DNA of 64,000 nt from Gordonia polyisoprenivorans. Its GTDB lineage: Bacteria; Actinomycetota; Actinomycetes; Mycobacteriales; Mycobacteriaceae. The notes below the pieces were generated by a model. The model saw nothing but the letters and a program-made list of their open reading frames with translations. It had not been told where the DNA came from and did not search any database. Within the stretch, counting starts at the first letter, position 1; each line of letters starts with the position of its first letter. This document shows, in pieces, positions 59,445 to 64,000 of the stretch. The position numbers and the translations under genes are program-made. The stretch spans positions 4,154,001 through 4,218,000 of the forward strand of contig NZ_CP072203.1 of assembly GCF_017654315.1 (NCBI RefSeq), in the 5' to 3' direction.

Positions 59445-59516
59445 GCGCGTATAGCTCAGCGGTAGAGCTCTGGTCTTACACACCAGCGGTCAGGGGTTCG
59501 AATCCCTTTGCGCGCA
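59445..59516 (+). tRNA. tRNA-Val (anticodon TAC)
   Basis: A full cloverleaf. Acceptor GCGCGTA pairs with TGCGCGC (one G-U), D-arm is AGCTCAGCGGTAGAGCT, the anticodon stem CTGGT/ACCAG closes the loop CTTACAC with anticodon TAC, and the T-arm is AGGGGTTCGAATCCCT. The CCA is encoded (59517-59519). It is intact, yet phage-derived genes follow at once, so its 3' end is probably the attachment site of the element. Confidence 0.95.
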
Positions 59517-59607
59517 CCACTGCTGACCAGCATGGATACGCGCCGCAGGCGCCACTGTGGGCCCAGACGTGGGCTATCCCGTCAGACGCTGACCGACGTG
59601 GACGTCC

Positions 59608-59690
59608 ATTGACTCACCCATTTTGGGCTGTCCTCCTGCGCGGCATTGACCCGAGTTGACGCCCCTAGTCCCGGTAGAGTGATCGTCAAC
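59608..59690 (+). promoter_or_regulatory. TTGAC-type repeats and putative early promoter at the left end
   Basis: TTGAC occurs at 59609, 59646 and 59656, the last two one helical turn apart, and an inverted GTCAAC is at 59685-59690, forming GTTGAC/GTCAAC with the copy at 59655. A -10-like TAGAGT (59675-59680) lies inside. This looks like an operator-promoter region in the 268-bp stretch (59520-59787) without a gene. No clear 17-bp-spaced -35 exists. Confidence 0.35.
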
Positions 59691-59787
59691 GCCACAGCGG
59701 GACACGAACTCACAGGACAAAAATCCGGCGAAGTATGACGACCGAGCAACAGGCACGGTCACCAACTCCGAAACCGGAGGCTTCACC

Positions 59788-59994
59788 ATGTCCACACTCG
59801 CCCGCACCGACATCTTCGGCCCGGACACACCGCGTTGGGTGTCCTATGACGACGCGGCATACATGCTCTGCGTCGACCCCCGCACGATCCGCCGTGCTGT
59901 CGAGCGTGGTGATGTCGCGGCGCGTCGGTTCTCCACAGCGATCCGAATCGACGCCGACAGCTTGGCGCGATACTTTGCCCCGGTGAACGCGTGA
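59788..59994 (+). CDS. Small HTH protein, excisionase/AlpA-like (HTH_17)
   Basis: A 68-residue MerR/excisionase-type winged HTH: WVSYDDAAYMLCVDPRTIRRAVERGDV and a wing RFSTAIRIDADSLARYF, typical of recombination directionality factors and AlpA-like regulators. GGAGG at 59776-59780 precedes ATG 59788. First gene of the element. Its stop overlaps the next start (GTGA). It may control excision or transcription. Confidence 0.78.
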   Translation: MSTLARTDIFGPDTPRWVSYDDAAYMLCVDPRTIRRAVERGDVAARRFSTAIRIDADSLARYFAPVNA

Positions 59995-60572
59995 CCGACA
60001 CGCTGAAGCTCTGCACCAAGTGCCAGCAGTCGCAGCCTGTCGACAACTTACATCGCAACGCATCCAAGGCTGACGGTCGGCAGGCTCAATGCAAGTCTTG
60101 CAAGGCGTCGAGTGACCGACGTTGGCGTGCAGAGAACATCGACCACGACCGAGAGCGCAAGCGGACTTGGTACCAGGACAACCGAGAACATTGCACCGCG
60201 TACAACCAAACTTGGCACGCTGCCAATCGCGAGCATCGCAGCGACTACGACCGAGAGCGACGCCGAGAACGGCCCGAGCTCGGTTGGGAGAAGGATTATC
60301 GACACCGATGCGGCATCTATGGCATCGCGCCGGTCATCCAGCCATTCACCAAGGCCGAGTTGACAGCAGCATGGGGCAATCGGTGCGTCGAATGCAATGC
60401 GCCTGATTGGCAGCTCGACCACATCACCCCCGTTGCCGCTGGTGGCGAGCATTCGATCACGAACTGCCGACCTTTGTGTGGCGAATGCAACAGGACGAAG
60501 TTGATAACTACTGACCGCCGATCAATAGCCGAATATCGAGCGACACAGCAATGCCTTGCAACAAGACAATAA
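59991..60572 (+). CDS. Phage HNH endonuclease
   Basis: A 193-residue HNH homing-type nuclease. The N-terminal zinc ribbon is CTKCQQ...CKSCK, and the HNH core is RCVECNAPDWQLDHITPVAAGGEHSITNCRPLCGECNRTK with Cys pairs. In tailed phages an HNH protein beside the terminase aids packaging; here it stands with the regulators, so a role in mobility or packaging is open. The GTG overlaps the upstream stop. Confidence 0.88.
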   Translation: MTDTLKLCTKCQQSQPVDNLHRNASKADGRQAQCKSCKASSDRRWRAENIDHDRERKRTWYQDNREHCTAYNQTWHAANREHRSDYDRERRRERPELGWEKDYRHRCGIYGIAPVIQPFTKAELTAAWGNRCVECNAPDWQLDHITPVAAGGEHSITNCRPLCGECNRTKLITTDRRSIAEYRATQQCLATRQ

Positions 60573-60627
60573 CCCGGGATAATCATACATAGGAAAACGG
60601 AACCCATTACCTATCCCAGGGGAAACA

Positions 60628-60813
60628 ATGCCCGACCAACTCACTCCCGAGAACGTTCGGGACTATCTCAGCGTATCCGACATCGCCCGAATCACCGGAA
60701 TGTCATGGCAAGGCGTGAAGAACATCATTCTCAGCCATGAAATACCGCATTTGACTCTTCGCAGTCGTCGGCGGTATTCCCTGTCTGCATTTCTCGAGGT
60801 TCTGGCCCGGTGA
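60628..60813 (+). CDS. Small HTH protein (second)
   Basis: A 61-residue HTH_17-like protein: YLSVSDIARITGMSWQGVKNIILSHEIPHLTLRSRRRYSLSAFLEVL. AGGGGAAACA ahead of ATG 60628 is a reasonable RBS. It ends with a 4-bp overlap into the next gene. A likely DNA-binding regulator or excisionase of the element. Confidence 0.68.
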   Translation: MPDQLTPENVRDYLSVSDIARITGMSWQGVKNIILSHEIPHLTLRSRRRYSLSAFLEVLAR

Positions 60814-61016
60814 TCACCCGCAATGAGTGGACGTGGCCGACGTTCTGCCGCGCCTTTAACGTCAAGGAATCCGACCTGATTCACGCGATCAATTCGCGCG
60901 AGTTGAAGGCCCGGAGAATCGGTGCGCTGATGATCCTTGATGACGTCGGACAAGCTAGTAATTGGCTCAACAAATACAGAAGGGGCCGAAATGGAACCAC
61001 TACAGAAGAAACTTAA
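60810..61016 (+). CDS. Small HTH protein (third)
   Basis: A 68-residue protein with a similar helix pattern (WTWPTFCRAFNVKESDLIHAINSRELKARRIGALMILDDV). GTG 60810 overlaps the previous stop. The element thus carries three short HTH-type proteins in its left part. The role is unknown. Confidence 0.6.
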   Translation: MITRNEWTWPTFCRAFNVKESDLIHAINSRELKARRIGALMILDDVGQASNWLNKYRRGRNGTTTEET

Positions 61017-61278
61017 GGGCGAAGAACTGAAGGCGCATAACGCGCACCTGCGAACCCTCTACGGCCGGACCCGGTGCCCAGGATGTGGTGATCTGGTGAG
61101 CGTAAAGACGGACTTGCATCTCGCGAAACATGAGGACTTGTGCGGCCTGAAGTCGAGAACGCCAAAGGGTGATCTATTCGACTTCCATCTCCGCAATCAT
61201 GGGTTAATGCTCGCAGACGCCGGTAAACGCTTCAAAACCGACGCTGAGATTGCCGCCTCCGAAAAATCAAATCACTAG
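60991..61278 (+). CDS. Small zinc-finger-like protein
   Basis: A 95-residue protein. A likely zinc site is RCPGCGDLVSVKTDLHLAKHEDLC (Cys, Cys, His, His/Cys). AAGGGG at 60980-60985 precedes ATG 60991, and the gene begins inside the end of the previous one. It is followed by a strong hairpin. I do not recognise a family. Confidence 0.6.
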   Translation: MEPLQKKLKGEELKAHNAHLRTLYGRTRCPGCGDLVSVKTDLHLAKHEDLCGLKSRTPKGDLFDFHLRNHGLMLADAGKRFKTDAEIAASEKSNH

Positions 61279-61286
61279 CAAAAGAC

Positions 61287-61315
61287 GAGACCCCCGGTGT
61301 GCCGCCGGGGGTCTC
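61287..61315 (+). terminator. Perfect 11-bp hairpin before the replication gene
   Basis: GAGACCCCCGG (61287-61297) pairs perfectly with CCGGGGGTCTC (61305-61315) around a 7-nt loop, 8 bp after the zinc-finger gene. The 3' arm ends right at GAGGAG, the ribosome-binding site of the next gene, so the hairpin could be a terminator or an attenuator that controls translation. Confidence 0.7.
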
Positions 61316-61330
61316 GAGGAGAACTTCACT

Positions 61331-62377
61331 GTGACTTCAATTGTATCAGAAGATTTCGACGCGCTGACGTGGATGAGTGCCTACGCGTGCCACGGACCGA
61401 AGACTGTTCGCGTGCTGCTCGCGCTATGGTCGCACGTCGACAACACGACATGTCGAGCACATCCGAGCCTCGAAACGCTCGCCGCTGAATCCGGCATCTC
61501 TCGACGCAACGTGATCAAGCAACTGAACTCGGCCGTCGAGGATGGATGGATCACGGTCGTCGAGAAGGGGTATCGGGGCCGCGCGACCGAGTATCGCCTC
61601 ACCCTGCCCGCCCCGTTGCCCTGGATCGCGAGCGAAGACAAGTCTGACCATCGCGACAACTGCAGGTGTCGGTCGTGCTTCACTTGCCGGTGCGCCTGGT
61701 GTCGCGAACACGGGCAGACGGATGCGCGGGCCGACGCCGTCGAGGCTAAAAAATGTCAGGACGCAGAAAATAGGGTGACGAATTCGACGGGAAAGGGTGA
61801 CGAATTCGACCAATACGGTGACGAATTCGCCGAATGCAGTGACGCCAGTGTCACACCAACTTCTCTTAGAACTTCTCTTACCAACTTCTCTCAAGAGAAC
61901 TTCTCTCTTTCTGGATCGGCTTGCGCCGATCCGCCGAAGATCAAAGACGAAGATGATCTTGCTCGACGTGGCGAGAAGACCAAGCGGGGTTATCCGCTCC
62001 ATGTCGACTTCGTTGGCAACGCTGCCACGCTCGCCAAGGCCGGACGTCTGGGGATCGACCACGACGAGGCTCTGCGCGCCTTCCATGGCTACATGAACGA
62101 GCACGACCACGAGACGTCGCGGAACTGGGGCGGTACCTTGTCGGCATTTATGTCGTCGGTTGTCGAGGACTTGGACAGTGAGCACTACGAACGCTTTTGG
62201 TGCGACGACGATCCTGACAACTACTTCCCCAGTGAAGATGTCGACGCCGAGGTGCAGCTCGACGCCGAGGATGACCACTGCGAAGTCTGCGGCTGCACCA
62301 TGACACTGCGGGCCGATCTTGACGACGGCGCTCATCTCGGTTGCCGCCCTGCCTTAACCACCTCGTCTTGCAAGTAG
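61331..62377 (+). CDS. Winged-helix replication initiator-like protein with internal iterons
   Basis: A 348-residue phage/plasmid-type replication protein. The N-terminal winged HTH is SLETLAAESGISRRNVIKQLNSAVEDGWITV with a wing (YRGRATEYRLTLP). Cys-rich segments CRCRSCFTCRCAWC (about 115-130) and CEVCGC near the C-terminus may bind zinc. A disordered Ser/Thr stretch in the middle is encoded by the iteron and AACTTCTCT repeat region. The GTG 61331 has GAGGAG at 61315-61320. The C-terminus is acidic. The best guess is an origin-binding initiator; no ATPase motif is seen, so host helicase loaders would be needed. Confidence 0.68.
   Translation: MTSIVSEDFDALTWMSAYACHGPKTVRVLLALWSHVDNTTCRAHPSLETLAAESGISRRNVIKQLNSAVEDGWITVVEKGYRGRATEYRLTLPAPLPWIASEDKSDHRDNCRCRSCFTCRCAWCREHGQTDARADAVEAKKCQDAENRVTNSTGKGDEFDQYGDEFAECSDASVTPTSLRTSLTNFSQENFSLSGSACADPPKIKDEDDLARRGEKTKRGYPLHVDFVGNAATLAKAGRLGIDHDEALRAFHGYMNEHDHETSRNWGGTLSAFMSSVVEDLDSEHYERFWCDDDPDNYFPSEDVDAEVQLDAEDDHCEVCGCTMTLRADLDDGAHLGCRPALTTSSCK
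61774..61906. repeat. Iteron array and AT-rich repeats inside the replication gene (putative origin)
   Basis: GGTGACGAATTCG occurs at 61774, 61796 and 61817, with a partial AGTGACG at 61838: spacing 22, 21 and 21 bp, two helical turns. Next come AACTTCTCT copies at 61858, 61870, 61883 and 61898 in a more AT-rich stretch. Copies 2 and 3 of the iteron encode GDEF in the gene's frame, but copy 1 is in another frame (VTNS), so the repeat is conserved as DNA. Initiator-bound iterons plus an adjacent unwinding-like region within the rep gene is the lambda O/ori pattern. Confidence 0.75.
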
Positions 62378-62396
62378 CCAATACAAAAGGGAAACC

Positions 62397-62609
62397 ATGA
62401 CACACAAACCCTCACCCGCCGACCTGGCGCCGAAAGCCGAACCCGTCGATCCAAGTCGCGCGATCGCCGATGCCCTCGCGACCGAGATTCGCCGACGAGA
62501 TGATCGTATCCGCGACCTCGAAATCGAGAATCGAACATTGCGTTCAGTCCTTGGCCTTGCATTTCGCGGCATCATGTCCAGCCGATTAGTCGGTGAGTTT
62601 CATGAGTGA
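62397..62609 (+). CDS. Small coiled-coil protein
   Basis: A 70-residue protein with a Pro-rich N-terminus and a coiled-coil segment RAIADALATEIRRRDDRIRDLEIENRTLRSVL. GGGAAACC precedes ATG 62397. Its end overlaps the next gene. A role in scaffolding or regulation cannot be told. Confidence 0.6.
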   Translation: MTHKPSPADLAPKAEPVDPSRAIADALATEIRRRDDRIRDLEIENRTLRSVLGLAFRGIMSSRLVGEFHE

Positions 62610-62766
62610 GAGTCTGGACTTAAAAAACGCACAGCAGCACGCGCGGACCGTTCAACTGCTCGACCACTACGCCCTCGCTCTCGAGGAGATCGCCACTGCC
62701 CACAACGCACTCGCGATTTATGTGCAGCAACTCGAATTGCGAGTCTCGGAATTGGAGGGAAAGTGA
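62602..62766 (+). CDS. Small helical protein (54 aa)
   Basis: A 54-residue, helical protein (MSESLDLKNAQQHARTVQLL to VSELEGK) with heptad-like Leu/Glu spacing. It starts at ATG 62602 inside the previous gene and overlaps the next start by 4 bp (GTGA), so it is translationally coupled on both sides. It was too short for most gene callers. Function unknown. Confidence 0.55.
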   Translation: MSESLDLKNAQQHARTVQLLDHYALALEEIATAHNALAIYVQQLELRVSELEGK

Positions 62767-63074
62767 CGGTATTCGACTTCACCGGCCTTGAGAGCCGTAA
62801 GAAGCTACCCGACGGTGATCCGCGCGGCATCCTCGGATTCGAGGACTACCCGGACGAACTCCAGAGGCTGATGGATGCTCGCCTGTATGCCGATTTTGAG
62901 CACCGGGTAAAGCTGCGTGACGCTACCGAGTTGGAGCGTGCATTACTCGCATATCTCGGATATATCGCCGAGGACGAGACGCGGGCGATTAAGGCACACA
63001 TTGAGTGGACCAAGGGTGTGCGAGCAATGCAATTCAAGTTCCTGGACGGGACAAGGATCGGAGAATCAGAATGA
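62763..63074 (+). CDS. Hypothetical phage protein (103 aa)
   Basis: A 103-residue, acidic helical protein (MTVFDFTGLESRKK...YLGYIAEDETRAIKAHIEW). It precedes the scaffold-like gene, where satellites and phages often have a small terminase or head-completion protein, but no motif supports that. The GTG 62763 overlaps the upstream stop; its own stop overlaps the next ATG (ATGA). Confidence 0.6.
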   Translation: MTVFDFTGLESRKKLPDGDPRGILGFEDYPDELQRLMDARLYADFEHRVKLRDATELERALLAYLGYIAEDETRAIKAHIEWTKGVRAMQFKFLDGTRIGESE

Positions 63075-63583
63075 GTGACAACACCGCATGGTCAGACGCA
63101 GGCGAACCGGAGTCCATCACCCCCGATGAACCCGCGACCGTCGACCGGGACCGGAACGAGACTCCCGATGCCGACCTCGATGACTCAGACCGGGGTGAGC
63201 TGATCGCTGAGAGTAAGAAGTACCGACAGCGCGCACAGGCAGCCGAGGGCGAGCGTGATGCACTGCGGGGTCGACTGGAGTCTGCCCAACGCGCGCAGGT
63301 GCTCGCGCTGGCTGCTGGGTTGTCGGAACCGGCTGACGTGTTCTCGACTCCCCTCGGTGGTGCCGACCTCGATGACCTACTGGATGACGACGGCCTGGTC
63401 GATCCCGGCAAGGTCCGGGCGACAGTCGACGCGGTAGTGCTCGCTCGCCCCGGCCTCGCGCGTGACCACGCCTCGACTGCACTGTTTGGCGACGTCGGGC
63501 AGGGGCGAACGAAGAAGCACCGACCGGAGAAATCAGGACCGACGTGGGCCGAAGTCCTCAAACCAACACCGGGCATTTCGTAA
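63071..63583 (+). CDS. Putative capsid scaffolding protein
   Basis: A 170-residue protein that is Asp/Glu-rich at the N-terminus (TPDEPATVDRDRNETPDADLDDSDR), with a charged coiled coil (ELIAESKKYRQRAQAAEGERDALRGRLESAQRA) and a basic C-terminal tail (RTKKHRPEKSG). That layout and the place directly before the capsid gene are typical of tailed-phage scaffolding proteins. Confidence 0.75.
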   Translation: MSDNTAWSDAGEPESITPDEPATVDRDRNETPDADLDDSDRGELIAESKKYRQRAQAAEGERDALRGRLESAQRAQVLALAAGLSEPADVFSTPLGGADLDDLLDDDGLVDPGKVRATVDAVVLARPGLARDHASTALFGDVGQGRTKKHRPEKSGPTWAEVLKPTPGIS

Positions 63584-63593
63584 AATTTTGCCC

Positions 63594-63599
63594 TATAAT
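63594..63599 (+). promoter_or_regulatory. Perfect -10 (TATAAT) before the capsid gene
   Basis: TATAAT lies in an AT-rich 137-bp gap (63584-63720) between scaffold and capsid. No good -35 with 17-bp spacing is found (TTTCGT is the nearest). A small stem GGCGC/GCGCC (63607-63611, 63625-63629) follows. It may drive extra capsid transcription. Confidence 0.35.
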
Positions 63600-63720
63600 T
63601 GAAATAGGCGCAGTTAGTTAAACCGCGCCGCAATCTTCGCCAGGCAATGCGAGAGTAAGTCAGTAGACGTATCTCGATCCACGGGTGACGCACACAATCA
63701 TCTAACAGAATTGAGACCAC

Positions 63721-64000
63721 ATGTCTATGAATCGAGCAGGGAACCTTGGGGCACTAAAACCCGATGAGGTTGCCGGACTTATTATTGAGCCTGCATTGTC
63801 GGCGAGTATCTTCGCGCAAGCTGCCAATCAGATTTCTTTCAACTCGGCGAATTTGCGTATTCCACGCGTCGCTGATGGAAGTGCAGCCTGGACTAGCGAA
63901 GGCGCCGAGATTGGCGTTAGTGACGCCACCATCTCCGAGGTTGTCGCCCCGGCAAAGGCAATTAAAGCGCTCACATTCTTGTCCAATGAACTAGTCGCTG
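63721..64000 (+). CDS. HK97-family major capsid protein (3' end outside window)
   Basis: The first 93 residues of an HK97-fold major capsid protein, starting MSMNRAGNLGALKPDEVAGL at ATG 63721. The region LRIPRVADGSAAWTSEGAEI followed by ISEVVAPAKAIKALTFLSNEL matches the N-arm/P-domain of actinophage and phiRv-type capsids. The frame stays open to the edge. Codons here are clearly more AT-rich (ATT, AAA, GAA) than in chromosomal genes upstream. Confidence 0.85.
   Translation, partial: MSMNRAGNLGALKPDEVAGLIIEPALSASIFAQAANQISFNSANLRIPRVADGSAAWTSEGAEIGVSDATISEVVAPAKAIKALTFLSNELVA

Follow-up and report, generated by a model that had tools for sequence, protein, structure and literature searches.

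Paired repeat arrays suggest a replication origin within the winged-helix initiator gene of a tRNA-Val element

The tRNA-Val element

Positions given below count from the first letter of the window, by which we mean the whole 64,000-nt stretch of DNA that was analysed. A tRNA-Val gene with the anticodon tac, identified by ARAGORN on the forward strand (59445-59519), is the integration target of a mobile element, and its 3′ end holds the att core TTCGAATCCCTTTGCGCGCACC (59497-59518, forward strand). A second att copy at 69126-69147, beyond the window, sets the length of the element at about 9.65 kb. The two copies are a duplication of the tRNA-Val 3′ end that is identical over 22 bp, which makes real the tRNA-Val element of which the earlier note had spoken. 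Within the window, all on the forward strand, the element encodes a small excisionase-like HTH_17 protein (59788-59994; PF12728 at 5.4e-5, below the Pfam cut-off, and phrog_7506, a recombination directionality factor, at 1e-5), an HNH/endonuclease VII-like protein (59991-60572; PF01844 at 7.4e-9, phrog_1035 at 9.6e-26), the initiator gene rep (61331-62377), a weakly matched scaffold-like ORF (63071-63583; phrog_4708, E 0.042) whose homologues are found close to Rep in seven of 16 relative contexts, and a major capsid gene (63721-64560, of which the window holds 63721-64000; PF05065 at 3.4e-23, phrog_10 at 8.3e-35, TIGR01554 at 2.1e-26). Beyond the window follow a head-tail adaptor (64547-64930), a head closure protein (64927-65253), a small terminase (65378-65788) and, on the reverse strand, a tyrosine integrase (67744-68922). 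Among the 19 element ORFs there was no PHROG match for large terminase, portal, protease or lysis functions, and the sole tail match (62763-63074) was weak at E 0.19. The DNA from 59445 to 64000 matched phages at the tRNA only.

With an integrase and a major capsid gene inside one att-bounded element, the element can be regarded as a candidate phage satellite if the term is taken as loosely as in the available text of PMC10654092. A capsid-forming PICI, as described in the accessible part of PMC10690885, carries capsid, protease, portal, connectors, large and small terminase and HNH genes; our element shares the capsid, connectors, small terminase and HNH, whereas portal, protease and large terminase went unrecognised among the 19 ORFs scanned, which places it outside that definition. 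The HNH part alone of the protein at 59991-60572 also gives a weak match to the IscB profile NF040563 (2e-5, far below cut-off). Among the relatives, one context (L288, 19227-19754) contains a homologue of the scaffold-like ORF where no capsid homologue was recognised, and another (L284), a contig of 10,888 bp and close to the element in length, encodes scaffold-like, capsid and adaptor proteins as well as Rep and a small terminase; it is perhaps an excised or separate copy.

The rep gene and its protein

The rep gene starts with GTG and encodes a winged-helix initiator of 348 aa, matched by PF13730 (HTH_36) at 1e-10 over residues 23-74. PHROG profiles for replication initiation and O-like proteins match Rep at 2.4e-7, 4e-7 and 3.7e-6, the two O-like matches (4e-7 and 3.7e-6) covering the winged-helix end only. 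In a structure model built from an alignment of five sequences, the part that includes the HTH_36 match, approximately residues 10-92 (61358-61606, forward strand), reaches a pLDDT of 57-91 in 10-residue blocks across residues 11-90. The linker that follows, residues 93-225 (61607-62005, forward strand), is Thr/Ser-rich and modelled with low confidence (pLDDT below 50), and its coding stretch contains both repeat arrays discussed below. A fold search with the model returned nothing at E <= 0.001, its top entries being ordinary winged-helix proteins, and a sequence search of solved structures gave three weak winged-helix matches. NCBIfam held no match for the Reps. No close relative of our Rep was found in 5.8 billion proteins (the one match being Rep itself), in 50,697 phage records or among viral contigs, and the Rep of one related locus (L279) had no relative in plasmids.

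The C-terminus of Rep can be aligned with that of a relative from the genus set (L007, the same gene as L278) and has no DnaT-like match among Pfam profiles; the C-terminal parts of three other proteins match DnaT weakly, below the Pfam cut-off (L288, 0.027; L286, 0.025; Bbif-1, 0.029). That this part of Rep loads the helicase is a guess. Beside rep, the ORFs at 62397-62609, 62602-62766 and 62763-63074 matched no profile naming a loader, so that no P-like helicase loader was recognised there. A DPFA-like motif, possibly a partner-binding peptide, lies near the otherwise dissimilar C-termini of six related Reps (L281, L283, L284, L285, L291 and L239), and its place is taken by DPFV or DPFM in L280 and L282. 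Ahead of the rep start codon, within 61286-61330, a perfect hairpin with 12-bp arms (CGAGACCCCCGG/CCGGGGGTCTCG) directly precedes the ribosome site, and the sequence GAGAACTTCACT in the same region looks like an array unit.

Two repeat arrays within rep

The 13-mer GGTGACGAATTCG occurs in three exact copies, starting at 61774, 61796 and 61817, with the 22- and 21-bp spacing that the earlier note had described; it has no other exact copy in the window and nine in the genome of 6.03 Mb, three of them being those in rep. The GTGAC half-sites begin at 61775, 61797, 61818 and 61839, 22, 21 and 21 bp apart, and define four iterons on the forward strand: iteron 1 (GTGACGAATTCGACGG, 61775-61790, containing the 13-mer at 61774-61786), iteron 2 (61797-61812, 13-mer 61796-61808), iteron 3 (61818-61833, 13-mer 61817-61829) and iteron 4 (61839-61854). 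The first three carry a single dyad arm each, and the second arm is present in iteron 4 only, where GTGAC-GCCAGT-GTCAC forms a perfect dyad with 5-bp arms. The fourth repeat that had been noted as partial thus exists, in register and 21 bp past the third copy, but is not partial, being a complete perfect dyad of the form GTGAC-N6-GTCAC. A palindrome scan of the rep gene itself was not significant (88/100).

Downstream of the iterons, four exact direct repeats of AACTTCTCT start at 61858, 61870, 61883 and 61898 (61858-61906, forward strand), at spacings of 12, 13 and 15 bp that agree with the 12-15 bp reported before, and no other exact copy is found in the window (0.11 expected). We propose this array as the DNA unwinding element. 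The 60-bp segment that begins here (at 61857-61858), 4 bp past iteron 4, is the least stable among the element positions 59497-64000, and its instability stands at the 99.99th percentile of the entire 64,000 nt. The description of these repeats as AT-rich holds relative to the GC-rich genome, the unit AACTTCTCT itself having 33% GC. A stretch of the form AACTTCTC(C)TCAAGAGAA, which could form a small hairpin, is common to the array (61883-61905) and two related loci (L281 and L285). No exact DnaA box occurs in 59497-64000, and allowing one mismatch brings up none in 61200-62500 either. A shared host oriC unwinding element was considered and rejected: in the dnaA-dnaN region of the same genome ACTWCTC forms no array, each strand having a single match within 5 kb, which leaves such sharing unsupported.

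Neither array is readily produced by coding sequence. In 20,000 codon-order shuffles of rep, no 13-mer occurred three times within 60 bp and no 9-mer four times within 60 bp. The first copy of GGTGACGAATTCG is read in frame 2 (RVTNST) and the second and third in frame 0 (GDEF), a difference in frame that had been pointed out earlier and that we find as described, and the four AACTTCTCT units are likewise split, two and two, over two reading frames. Because both arrays are read in two frames, constraint at the protein level is unable to explain the repeats.

The arrangement in related winged-helix genes

Using the winged-helix domain as query, we found matches in four of 59 genomes of the genus, our own included. 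Three other genus loci (L006, L007 and L009) have differing dyad-like repeats approximately 22 bp apart right after the winged-helix stretch, followed by AACTACTC units, unlike a fourth (L008), which has no such array. Searches of the family matched at least 54 of 401 genomes, or at least 45 of 401 when the model was broadened and the limit tightened, and a search of the class matched at least 38 of 394; these family and class tallies are lower bounds, as 10-12 candidates were scored per genome. Of 112 distinct winged-helix genes, 17 with less than 120 bp after the domain were dropped and 95 tested for repeats, a pass being no more than three of 300 codon shuffles. The test was passed by 54 of the 95 genes, our own included, as against nine of 338 neighbouring ORFs; the 41 that fail are mostly larger or class-level proteins. 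Some of the genes used to build the search model were already known to have repeats, so the pass rates that exclude the model genes are important: 35 of 73 remaining genes pass, as do 15 of 38 class-level genes, with only four of 17 passing among proteins of more than 450 aa outside the model. For L283 (the same locus as L009) an array is visible, but at 7/300 it is not counted, and for L280 the repeat counted is its second array.

In the 54 passing genes the repeats sit after the winged-helix domain and differ in sequence from gene to gene, with lags of 22 bp in 21 genes, 23 bp in 13, 21 bp in 12 and 24 bp in eight, and in 34 of them the lag is not a multiple of three. Two passing genes (L198 and L203) have far-off repeats and were left out of the stability, motif, covariation and short-period tests. 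In 41 of 52 genes, the 40 bp of lowest stability in the coding sequence downstream of the winged helix start between -10 and +60 relative to the last repeat, where uniform placing would give 8.1. A short-period self-match (lag 8-16) is present in the 75 bp after the repeats in 36 of 51 genes; stretches lying another 150 bp downstream show it in three of 47 cases, and codon shuffling predicts 4.5. The lag is no multiple of three in 19 of the 36. Two or more copies of the motif ACTWCTC are present in 11 of 52 genes (0.075 expected), and across 12 genes its copies number 28 in forward and four in reverse orientation; with other units in other genes, such as ATCAGATCC, any one array unit is common to only part of the set. 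The search of related elements for the same array at the same place that had been suggested earlier thus bears out repeat conservation in homologous genes, in the form of an equivalent array, at the same place and mostly with a sequence of its own, followed by an easily melted array. The palindrome scan of the relatives reached p <= 5/100 in only 17 of 52 genes.

Conservation at the DNA level varies between groups of relatives. For three genes with winged helices 73-85% identical pairwise (L293, L289 and L224), the fraction of all-identical columns is 0.66 in the 150 bp after the winged helix, 0.65 in the winged helix and 0.25 in the next 150 bp. In two other groups conservation drops from the winged helix to the following 150 bp (from 0.74 to 0.51 in L252 and L259; from 0.58 to 0.49 in L262, L268 and L270). 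Between L285 and L281, with winged helices 59% identical and iterons dissimilar, 36 of 39 bases after the last iteron are identical by manual count. Covariation between recognition helix and iterons was examined in 51 genes, L280 being dropped as its detected repeat is the second array, and gave no helix-specific signal: the partial correlation with the helix given the rest is 0.088 (reached by one of 500 permutations), and that with the rest given the helix is 0.188 (reached by none of 500). Iteron similarity tracks overall relatedness, not the recognition helix.

A putative origin and its alternatives

The repeats, their register, the dyad in the fourth iteron, the adjoining instability and the same anatomy in relatives are all seen in the sequence. 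Taken together, they indicate that the element very probably starts its replication at 61774-61906, from an origin embedded in its own initiator gene, where the linker between the winged helix and the C-terminal part is encoded. They support the reading of the earlier note, an origin within the initiator gene in the manner of lambda O/ori. In this proposal, the winged helix of Rep would bind the four iterons at their GTGAC half-sites, which, being two helical turns apart, lie on one face of the DNA. The resulting complex would destabilise the adjoining AACTTCTCT array, which would melt, and one exposed strand would be held through the 12-15-bp repeats. The replicative helicase would then be brought in by the C-terminal part of Rep or by a host or helper protein, and replication would take place after excision. 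A DnaA box is missing from this site and present in only one of the 52 genes whose repeats are intragenic, which suggests that 61774-61906 can do without DnaA.

There are other possible explanations for repeats in this location. A winged-helix protein acting on repeats in its own gene could repress it, and iteron Reps often autoregulate; the arrays might then be intragenic operators by which Rep blocks its own transcription, with the true origin elsewhere in the element. Operators would, however, be expected near the promoter and not approximately 440 bp into the gene, and nothing about them calls for adjoining the least stable stretch, as 41 of 52 genes do, or for the second, short-period array that follows in 36 of 51, so that we consider autoregulation improbable. 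The element also encodes a small terminase, which could bind the arrays as a packaging (pac or cos) site of the satellite, and such sites may be repetitive and lie within genes. Yet the anatomy accompanies the winged-helix gene rather than a terminase gene, and recurs in nine of 16 contexts without a homologue of our capsid, the one capsid type searched for, making a packaging role highly improbable. The least credible explanation, to which we assign almost no weight, takes the repeats as those of a protein, an expanded low-complexity linker without DNA function: the stretch does encode a Thr/Ser-rich linker of low model confidence, and the lags of L196, L198 and L203 are multiples of three, but our own units are read in two frames, and 34 of 54 repeat lags and 19 of 36 second-array lags are not multiples of three.

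The site could also be a formerly active origin, with the integrated element now a remnant whose array is no longer used. The element is found in the integrated state, sequence cannot reveal activity, and Rep has no close homologue (one protein, its own). Against this, the reading frames for Rep, integrase, capsid, connectors and small terminase are open, and the att copies are identical over 22 bp, which makes a remnant rather unlikely.

Comparison with known origins

Origins inside initiator genes are already known. In lambda, according to the available text of PMC7466680, iterons and an AT-rich tract lie in the middle of the initiator gene, with four iterons in lambda and six in Stx phages, and unwinding requires at least two iterons together with the AT-rich region. 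Analogous to lambda O/ori, our Rep has O-like winged-helix profile matches, and its gene holds four iterons approximately two helical turns apart (22/21/21 bp) with an easily melted stretch directly beside them. Unlike lambda, the iteron sequence is different, the unstable part is an ordered array of four 9-mer units, no P-like gene was recognised beside rep, and the element is satellite-like with capsid genes. With no P-like loader recognised, we suggest that the site works like lambda O/ori but do not file it as one. At RK2 oriV, iterons lie beside four short direct DUE repeats, of which TrfA binds one strand specifically (available text of PMC4081077); arrays of our type resemble this DUE in their 12-15-bp spacing and fixed orientation, while oriV is outside the rep gene and has DnaA boxes, which our site is without. 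The steps proposed above, from phased-iteron binding through melting and strand holding to helicase loading, follow the scheme for lambda O and TrfA in the accessible parts of PMC7466680 and PMC4081077.

Actinobacterial and satellite systems offer further likenesses. The RepA of the mycobacteriophage prophages Miko, Rachaly and Jeeves is, like our Rep, an actinobacterial initiator with an N-terminal HTH, and its origin was proposed upstream of or within repA, as in lambda, in regions where the authors identified no repeats, as far as the available text of PMC7157519 goes. Candidate Mycobacterium PICIs and phiRv1/phiRv2 share with our element tRNA integration, tyrosine integrases and capsid and replication genes, and the consulted part of PMC10654092 describes no origin for them. 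Another satellite, the Vibrio cholerae PLE, likewise encodes an initiator of its own and has semi-palindromic iterons, but its RepA is of the RepA_N family, its origin is noncoding and helper functions are required (PMC7145576, available text). Two full-size phages, unlike our element in that respect, come close in anatomy, with intragenic clustered repeats followed by the least stable 40 bp and, in both, by AT-rich sequence: BBP_0958 of Bifidobacterium phage Bbif-1 (HTH_36; repeats at 0/300) and gp63 of Gordonia phage Lucky10 (repeats at 1/300), the latter matching PHROG replication initiation and neighbouring gp64, an annotated helicase loader.

In the literature covered, consisting of openly available papers seen mostly at the level of titles, we came across no account of such an arrangement in actinobacterial satellites. 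For a group of satellites and prophages of actinobacteria, the sites described here are candidate origins placed exactly enough to be tested, and for RepA-type mycobacterial prophages, where the available text of PMC7157519 leaves the origin between upstream of and within repA, the anatomy indicates what to seek. Self-contained cassettes of this small size, each an initiator with its origin and differing from one another in their iterons, might serve as compatible vector replicons; they would also allow one to ask how an initiator and the origin in its own gene change together. One broader hypothesis, which we advance tentatively and hold at somewhat less than even confidence, is that such cassettes are common in actinobacterial mobile elements, with the origin in the linker-coding stretch of a winged-helix Rep; that relatives exchange the iterons, together with the winged helix, as a module determining specificity but retain the unwinding repeats; that a common reader, either a Rep region or a host factor, holds one strand of AACTWCTC-type arrays; and that iteron type sets incompatibility among co-resident satellites, phages and plasmids.

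Array units as markers and short HTH-only ORFs

As a search key, pairs of AACTACTC matched at least 120 viral stretches and were rejected: at 122 places, repeats of the 20-bp class (at least 14 of 16) were found upstream of eight and downstream of six, as by chance. The doublet by itself marks nothing. A looser form of AACTACTC matched nine of 59 genus genomes, mostly through one or two recurrent sequences.

Some of the winged-helix genes are short, HTH-only ORFs (L161, L165-L168, L170, L171, L174, L184 and L233) with 21-22-bp repeats at or after the stop codon. DnaA boxes of the form TTATCCACA occur in six of 20 such short ORFs, compared with one of 52 genes with intragenic repeats, and these ORFs perhaps belong to a second type of origin that shares the winged helix but depends on DnaA. 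When short or terminal-HTH genes were read past the domain and the stop codon, repeats were detected in 14 of 22 by dinucleotide-block shuffles.
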